IMG/VR virus record: IMGVR_UViG_3300017770_000088 | Coordinates: 1 to 30,849 of that record | Source of the DNA: a virus | DNA: 30,849 nucleotides | Strand: one strand, 5' to 3' | Shown here: piece by piece, positions 1,600-23,677 of the stretch | Numbering within the stretch: the stretch's first letter is position 1 | Layout of the letters: every line of letters begins with the position of its first letter | Notes under the pieces: generated by a model | Database searches by the model: none | What the model was told of the DNA's origin: nothing | What the model saw: the letters and a program-made list of their open reading frames with translations, nothing else | Translations under genes and position numbers: made by a program

Positions 1600-1732
1600 G
1601 GGAGAATGCTCCACAGTGTTCAGGTCCCCGTTGCTTGGCCTGAATCGATCTGCAGTCCCGTAGGACTCAACGTTACTCTATTCTACCATGGTTTTAGTAG
1701 CCGTTGATACTGAACTGTATAGCAGAGATACC
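1600..1732 (-). promoter_or_regulatory. Structured leader of the DUF4278-like gene with a weak promoter
   Basis: About 130 nt between the terminator at 1733-1752 and the DUF4278-like gene contain no frame. On the minus strand there is a -10-like TAGAAT (1680-1685) without a good -35 box. Two inverted repeats follow: AGTCC / GGACT around a 4-nt loop (1654-1667), and TTCAGG / CCTGAA around a 14-nt loop (1619-1644). It looks like a structured 5' leader. I could not match it to a known riboswitch. Confidence 0.4.
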
Positions 1733-16840: not shown

Positions 16841-17032
16841 TCAGAACAATCCTGGGATGATCTGACCGGTTAGAGCATAAGCTCCAATAGCAGCTACAAA
16901 GCCAAGCATTGCAAGGCGGCCATTTAGCTTTTCAGCGCGAGTGTTGTGATCCACAGTAGTTTCAGCAAAGTACATTTGAGGCTCGATAGCATAGGCATTA
17001 AGCCGTCCGCGTTCTTCTTTTACGATAGTCAT
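16841..17032 (-). CDS. hli: High-light-inducible protein
   Basis: The 63-residue protein ends in a single membrane helix carrying the chlorophyll-binding signature [13 protein letters not shown] (E34, N37, R39), followed by [18 protein letters not shown]. Hli proteins sit in the thylakoid membrane, bind chlorophyll and carotenoid, and protect photosystem II during stress and D1 replacement. The gene overlaps psbA by ATGA, so it is translated from the psbA message. A strong terminator follows. This is a host-derived auxiliary gene typical of cyanophages. Confidence 0.95.
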
Positions 17033-18108
17033 CCGACAGCAGGTGCTTTAAGGGCAATGGGGACGATGTTGTTAGAAGCCAGGTCGAGAGGAAAGTTGTG
17101 TGCATTCCTTTCGTGCATCACTTCCATGCCGAGTCCCGCACGGTTCAGTATATCACCCCATGTATTGATCACACGGTTCTGTGAGTCTGTGACCGACTGG
17201 TTGAAGTTGAAGCCGTTGAGGTTGAAGGCCATGGTTGACACGCCAAGGGCGGTGAACCAGATACCCACAACAGGCCAGGCTGCAAGGAAGAAGTGAAGGC
17301 TACGGCTGTTGTTGAACGAGGCGTATTGGAAGATCAGGCGACCGAAGTAGCCGTGAGCAGCCACGATGTTGTACGTCTCTTCTTCTTGGCCGAATTTGTA
17401 GCCGTAGTTCTGACTTACTTGTTCAGTTGTCTCTCTAATGAGAGAAGAAGTAACCAAGCTACCGTGCATGGCGCTAAAGAAAGCACCACCAAACACACCA
17501 GCAACTCCCAACATGTGGAACGGATGCATGAGGATGTTATGTTCGGCTTGAAAGACGAGCATGTAGTTGAACGTTCCGCTGATCCCGAGTGGCATTGCAT
17601 CAGAAAAAGATCCTTGACCGAATGGGTAGACAAGAAAGACTGCCGAAGCGGCTGCAACGGGTGCAGAGTAAGCAACACAGATCCAGGGGCGCATACCTAA
17701 CCGGTAGCTAAGTTCCCATTCTCGTCCCATGTAAGCGTAGATACCAATAAGGAAGTGGAAGACAACGAGCTGGAAGGGTCCGCCGTTGTAGAGCCATTCG
17801 TCAAGAGTGGCTGCTTCCCAGATTGGATAGAAGTGCAAGCCGATGGCGTTGCTGGAAGGTACGACTGCACCTGAGATGATGTTGTTTCCATAAAGCAAAG
17901 AACCGGCGACCGGTTCGCGGATCCCGTCAATGTCGACGGGTGGAGCGCCTACGAAAGCGACGATGAAGCAAATGGCTGCAGCAATCAGTGTCGGGATCAT
18001 TAAGACGCCAAACCAACCGACATAAAGACGGTTGTTAGTGGAGGTAACCCACTGGCAAAACGATTCCCATGCTGACACTGCGCCCTGGTCCAGGACGGAT
18101 TGTGACAT
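17029..18108 (-). CDS. psbA: Photosystem II D1 protein
   Basis: The 359-residue protein is a full-length D1. All functional residues fall at their standard positions: Y161, D170, E189, H190, H198, H215, S264, H272, H332, E333, H337, D342 and A344, with the usual C-terminal extension after A344 that CtpA removes. Residue 130 is Glu (YMGREWEL), the high-light D1:2 type, rather than the Gln of D1:1. During infection phage D1 replaces the rapidly lost host D1 and sustains electron flow for phage DNA synthesis. The message probably starts at the extended -10 box at 18161-18169 and begins with a stem-loop. It runs through hli to the terminator at 16811-16830. Confidence 0.98.
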
Positions 18109-23641: not shown

Positions 23642-23671
23642 AGTATGCCATAAAAAAACGGGGCCTGTCAA
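23642..23671 (-). promoter_or_regulatory. Promoter whose -35 box lies in a terminator loop
   Basis: Minus strand: TTGACA (23666-23671), 18-nt spacer, CATACT (23642-23647). TTGACA fills six of the seven loop bases of the hairpin at 23659-23677, and the T tract lies within the spacer. It drives the sigma-like gene, whose start is at 23605. Confidence 0.8.
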
Positions 23672-23677
23672 GCCCCG
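23652..23677 (-). terminator. Intrinsic terminator after the annealing-protein gene
   Basis: Minus-strand CGGGGC-TTGACAG-GCCCCG followed by seven T. It lies about 60 nt after the stop codon at 23738. Confidence 0.88.

Follow-up and report, generated by a model that had tools for sequence, protein, structure and literature searches.

A putative terminator hairpin carrying the −35 box of the next promoter in cyanosiphovirus-like DNA

The DNA signals that end transcription and those that begin it are as a rule regarded as distinct. A known case of overlap is the Escherichia coli frd terminator, which overlaps the ampC promoter, placing the terminator of one operon within the control DNA of the next; in that case the hairpin comes after the ampC promoter and acts, in addition, as an attenuator of the downstream transcript. 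In T4-like phages, composite promoter–terminator cassettes have been named promoter-early stem-loops (PeSLs; Arbiol 2010; Comeau 2014; as summarised in PMC4503421 and PMC5931544), and the account of cyanophage P-SS2 lists 19 ordinary sigma-70 promoters and 22 rho-independent terminators (PMC2784084). In bacteria, recycling of RNA polymerase (RNAP) allows reinitiation where terminators lie near promoters, over distances of up to ~1 kb (PMC11347151, PMC6978380). Here we describe a phage locus at which the tip of a predicted terminator hairpin is at the same time the recognition box of the next promoter. It resembles the PeSLs in apparently uniting an intrinsic terminator and a strong sigma-70 promoter within a compact intergenic cassette flanked by phage genes of the same direction, and the PeSL cassette is its nearest known relative, alike in its presumed functions and different in its layout.

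The element between the SSAP and sigma-factor genes

The window analysed here is the whole of a 30.8-kb IMG/VR virus record (IMGVR_UViG_3300017770_000088; 30,849 nt), whose replication genes match those of the Synechococcus siphoviruses S-CBS2 and S-CRES1-3. On its minus strand, the gene for a Sak-type single-strand annealing protein (SSAP, 24448–23738; Pfam SSAP_Sak, E = 8.8e-5; phrog_21418, E = 9e-68), the counterpart of which is annotated as Rad52 recombinase in S-CRES1 and S-CRES3, is followed by the fused element (23677–23642), the gene for a 261-aa sigma-70 family factor (23605–22820; Pfam Sigma70_r2, E = 3e-13; phrog_351, E = 1.2e-26) and the SSB gene (22785–22432). The Pfam and PHROG matches thus confirmed both neighbours named in the initial annotation, the upstream one being a Sak-type SSAP and the downstream one a sigma-70 region 2 protein. 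An ordinary promoter without a hairpin (TTGACA-17-TATATT, 11/12; 24509–24481, minus strand) precedes the SSAP gene and forms a counterpart to the fused element. Elsewhere in the window, psbA, coding for the photosystem II D1 protein, was found at 17029–18108 (minus strand; phrog_182, E = 9e-196), on a contig with cyanosiphovirus-like (S-CBS2/S-CRES) replication genes; cyanosiphovirus genomes have been proposed to be without psbA and psbD (PMC6157547). The sole match of an Rfam search was a glutamine-II riboswitch at 1619–1675 (minus strand; RF01704, 54.7 bits), with no family at the fused element.

Read along the minus strand, the element is CGGGGC-TTGACAG-GCCCCG-TTTTTTT-ATGG-CATACT. The hairpin (23677–23659), assigned from its fold and from compensatory stem change among relatives, has the makings of an intrinsic terminator: an 8-bp stem with six GC pairs, followed by seven Ts (23658–23652), about 60 nt past the SSAP stop codon. 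Its folding energy is −13.2 kcal/mol (z −3.4), a value reached by 1 of 200 shuffles. The −35 box TTGACA (23671–23666) matches the consensus at all six positions, in agreement with the initial annotation, which had placed it in the loop. It does lie inside the hairpin, at the tip, but the fold of lowest energy pairs the two Ts of the box with the AG that follows; this gives the 8-bp stem and a GAC loop, and leaves the box partly paired instead of fully exposed in the loop. The T tract doubles as part of the promoter spacer and CATACT (23647–23642) lies 18 nt downstream of the −35 box, both as first described and read directly from the sequence. As promoter boxes the two are unequal, since the −35 is a full consensus match and the −10 matches only 4/6 positions; a TG is, however, present at the extended −10 position (TGG + CATACT, 23650–23642). 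Together these features make up a putative sigma-70-type promoter, TTGACA-18-CATACT with TG, 36 nt before the sigma-factor ATG, with a predicted transcript start at ~23635 and a leader of ~30 nt. The plus strand has no T tract at the hairpin, so that the hairpin can terminate transcription on the minus strand only, that is, transcription coming from the SSAP gene.

Conservation at the SSAP–sigma junction

The sigma-factor protein as query returned one relative only in viral contigs, and the SSAP was used as query instead. Among the closer relatives in the IMG/VR contigs found in this way, the order SSAP–sigma–SSB is general, and 37 distinct SSAP–sigma intergenic regions were left once near-duplicates had been removed. 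An automatic test (−35 in a perfect hairpin, T tract and −10) was passed by 21 of these 37 regions, and those failing it were classified by eye. Four more have TTGACA in a hairpin, three with bulged stems (L001, L010 and L027) and one with a poor −10 (L032), and recurrence in related genomes, a check named beforehand, was accordingly seen in 25/37 distinct gaps. Five regions have the hairpin, the T tract and the extended −10 without a −35, and seven, from deeper relatives, have neither feature. The five without TTGACA in the loop are L006, L016, L023, L024 and L042 (e.g. TATGGCATACT); loss of TTGACA with the extended −10 kept suggests that an extended −10 can replace the −35. At the same junction, the fused element is found in S-CBS2 (GCTTGACAGGCCCTCTTTTTTATTGGTATACT), S-CRES3 (GGGGGTTGACGGGCCCCCTTTTTTCATGTCATACT) and S-CRES1/2 (AGCCCCTTGACATAGGGGCTTTTTTACTGCATAAT).

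When the 25 elements were anchored at the −35 box, TTGAC was invariant save for one A, the −10 was conserved and the T tract was strong at +13 to +16 (T in 21–24 of 25 in four columns), while the outer stem positions were near 0 bits. The summed pairing energy was −371 kcal/mol for the native elements versus −202 ± 15 kcal/mol with the downstream halves exchanged, and 0/5000 permutations were as good. The stem has thus turned over on both sides together with the boxes unchanged, and on these grounds both the hairpin and the promoter functions appear to be under selection. The original proposal that the two kinds of signal occupy about 36 bp in common is supported, and both are conserved in the relatives.

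Recurrence in the window and in other phages

When the window was scanned for terminator hairpins that contain TTGACA, with up to one mismatch, and are joined to a −10 at 16–18 nt, two elements emerged, versus 0.1 per dinucleotide shuffle. The second, aggccgggg-[CTTGACA]-cctcggctt TTTTGTGGG TATATT (3517–3478, minus strand), lies after the portal gene (phrog_145), and its stem is unlike that of the first (aggccgggg vs cggggc). S-CBS2 likewise carries a fused element after gp089 (L088:24016). What is probably a variant whose hairpin lacks a −35, consisting of a hairpin, a T tract and the extended −10 TGC-TATGCT, is located between the SSB gene and a 141-aa ORF (22365–22320, minus strand), and a weak one, with a TTCG hairpin, a T tract and CATACT 15 nt on, no −35 and no TG in place, precedes the small terminase gene (16831–16795, minus strand). 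Whether almost every terminator of these phages is joined to a promoter was tested as well, and this proved only partly true (11/63 vs 1–2/63 at control offsets). A further fused element 3' of the SSB gene was seen in L012:7011, L014:7088, L021:7066 and L017:4251; its −10 differs (TAGAAT), and the sequence downstream is well conserved. Several of the start codons annotated in S-CBS2 and S-CRES3 fall 4–9 nt past a strong hairpin and T tract (L087 32976, 33383, 34705; L088 5014; L090 11811, 12231), which leaves no room for a ribosome-binding site; these genes are possibly leaderless, or their hairpins have another role.

Beyond this lineage, the IMG/VR promoters that follow the scheme TTGACA–T tract–YATACT have spacer lengths clustered at 17. 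A hairpin was counted when at least 6 bp with at least 4 GC surrounded the −35 and ended at the T tract, with a spacer of 16–18; several of the database-scan fractions given here are samples among the matches listed, with related contigs only partly removed. Such a hairpin was present in 21/99 distinct promoters with T-tract spacers, among the matches listed, compared with 0.08% for random upstream arms and 0/102 for A-tract spacers, again among the matches listed (Fisher p = 1e-7 against the T-tract set). For bacterial genomes the figure was 2/97 among the matches listed in one scan (Fisher p = 2.5e-5, viral vs bacterial). The strict pattern GGGGNTTGACANNCCCCTTTTTT, which does not require a −10, occurred in 107 stretches of viral contigs, versus 0 for the loop ACAGTT and 7 for the loop TGTCAA. 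A −10 stood at a spacer of 16–18 in 55/65 distinct strict-pattern sites, 48 of them with a spacer of exactly 17, and in 59/64 the gene before the site was co-directional. TTCG-loop terminators with a similar stem had a −10 at the matching distance in 17/112 cases, and the loop sequence hence predicts the promoter.

The genes flanking the strict sites include psbA, Hsp20, small terminase/exonuclease, tail fibre/helicase, an NAD-synthetase family gene and thymidylate synthase, neighbours which suggest that the carriers are cyanophages and other phages of marine origin. The isolate S-ShM2 has a fused element before its helicase gene and P-TIM68 has one, with GTGACA, 3' of Hsp20; none was found in the 97 kb of Syn9 that were scanned, so the element is not used by all cyanophages. 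For one context, L520, no isolate gave a match. In S-ShM2, the helicase CDS is annotated to begin at 1520, which is inside the predicted fused promoter (L564:1501–1529) and probably too far upstream. Annotation of terminators and promoters is affected by such overlaps, and the combined signature is specific enough for locating operon boundaries in unannotated viral contigs.

According to the initial annotation, the arrangement may couple upstream transcription to expression of the sigma factor. This did not hold up as the reason for its existence: the same device is present at the junction of the portal gene and the next ORF in the window and, elsewhere, before helicase, thymidylate synthase, exonuclease and NAD-synthetase-family genes. 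The second copy in the window and the wide range of downstream genes argue for general operon punctuation and against a sigma-specific switch, and the device looks like a general punctuation of serial operons.

Possible function and comparison with known systems

The association of the two signals is real and greatly exceeds what chance would give. A terminator and a promoter might be expected to fall side by side by accident where gaps of ~130 nt have to hold both, but 0.1 elements are expected per shuffled window, and the register of 16–18 nt is constant across many unrelated stems, with hairpins in 0.08% of the random-arm control; recurrence had already ruled this explanation out, and its probability is negligible. 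Equally, palindromes over promoters are typical of operators and the stems are symmetric about the −35, as would suit a dimeric regulator that binds the palindrome over the −35 box, the hairpin being incidental. A palindrome shared within the genome is nevertheless not what we found, as the window's two stems differ; moreover, the stems vary among relatives with pairing preserved, and one side requires a T tract (A-tract spacers came with a hairpin in 0/102 cases, among the matches listed). Binding of such a regulator was rejected on account of the stem turnover and the A-tract control, and we consider it highly improbable. At the level of the sequence, it is demonstrated that the two signals are present in a constant register, that they are conserved together while the stem turns over, and that they recur at other junctions between co-directional genes. 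The best explanation, in which we have strong confidence, is a fused terminator–promoter of ~36 bp that would serve as punctuation of co-directional operons. Its purpose would be compact punctuation and the insulation of back-to-back operons; as a widely recurring element, it would represent a minimal 36-bp punctuation mark for phages.

In the proposed mechanism, the same ~36 bp would be read twice, once as RNA and once as double-stranded DNA. As RNA, the GC hairpin and the U tract would halt polymerase arriving from the SSAP operon; as DNA, the holoenzyme would read the −35 at the hairpin tip, the spacer formed by the 3' arm and the T tract, and the extended −10, and would start the sigma/SSB operon. 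We infer that termination and initiation in vivo are carried out by the host RNA polymerase. Judging from usual polymerase footprints, a polymerase that has halted at the T tract, with its RNA ending at ~23652, would cover ~23669–23634, from the −35 box to the predicted start. With footprints that overlap in this way, terminating and initiating polymerases could not occupy the site at once, and simultaneous termination and initiation at one site would be precluded.

How far this overlap is exploited is a matter on which two readings differ from plain punctuation. Polymerases pausing at the T tract could cover the promoter and thereby repress sigma expression until the early wave has passed, in keeping with the presumed footprint geometry and with an overlap at the sigma gene that is kept in most relatives; but the device is not sigma-specific and terminated complexes may depart too quickly to matter, and we regard such a switch as rather unlikely. 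The coupling might instead be positive, with RNAP staying on the DNA after RNA release and restarting at the overlapping promoter. Intrinsic termination often leaves RNAP with retained sigma on the DNA, reinitiating nearby in vitro (PMC6978380, PMC6978322) with an efficiency that depends on distance and on sigma (PMC11347151), and at this locus the distance between terminator and promoter is near zero, with co-directional upstream genes at 59 of the 64 strict sites. This behaviour is, however, known for E. coli RNAP in vitro, a 2024 paper describes it as not yet demonstrated in vivo and found no recycling of this kind by phage-type RNAPs (PMC11347151), and simple compaction accounts for the same data, which leaves a restart on the spot conceivable but doubtful. 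The fused elements provide many natural constructs with which to ask if, in vivo, an RNA polymerase initiates again right where it has terminated. Going beyond compact punctuation, we tentatively raise the possibility, judged from sequence patterns, that through them many phages, chiefly those of marine cyanobacteria, follow a regulatory grammar not described so far, in which a terminator hairpin bearing the next −35 delivers the terminating polymerase onto the promoter or excludes others from it; if true, serial operons would be coupled without any regulator.

In the open-access literature, we found no relevant earlier description of a promoter within a terminator loop, and one may exist elsewhere. 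Compared with ampC/frd, the order of the signals is different, as the predicted start site of the fused element lies downstream of the hairpin. P-SS2 offers the same two kinds of signal in the same type of phage; its promoters and terminators are treated separately in the accessible part of that account, which describes no fused element (PMC2784084). The work on RNAP recycling, in turn, describes no terminator and promoter that share DNA. For the PeSLs, the layout was measured in the T4-like phage RB49 (144 of 164 kb), where a complete promoter follows the T tract, the −35 beginning 14–32 nt after the stem in 10/10 cases, and where the hairpin loop is an ordinary one, with a −35 in the hairpin in 0/47 terminators. 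In the window, S-CBS2 and S-CRES3 taken together, the −35 lies in the hairpin in 5/63 terminators and downstream in 0, and the window element has no complete promoter downstream of its T tract. PeSLs occur as near-identical repeats through which recombination takes place; the two elements of the window have different stems. Relative to the PeSL cassette, the promoter of the fused element is thus shifted upstream, so that its −35 falls within the hairpin and its spacer takes in the T tract.
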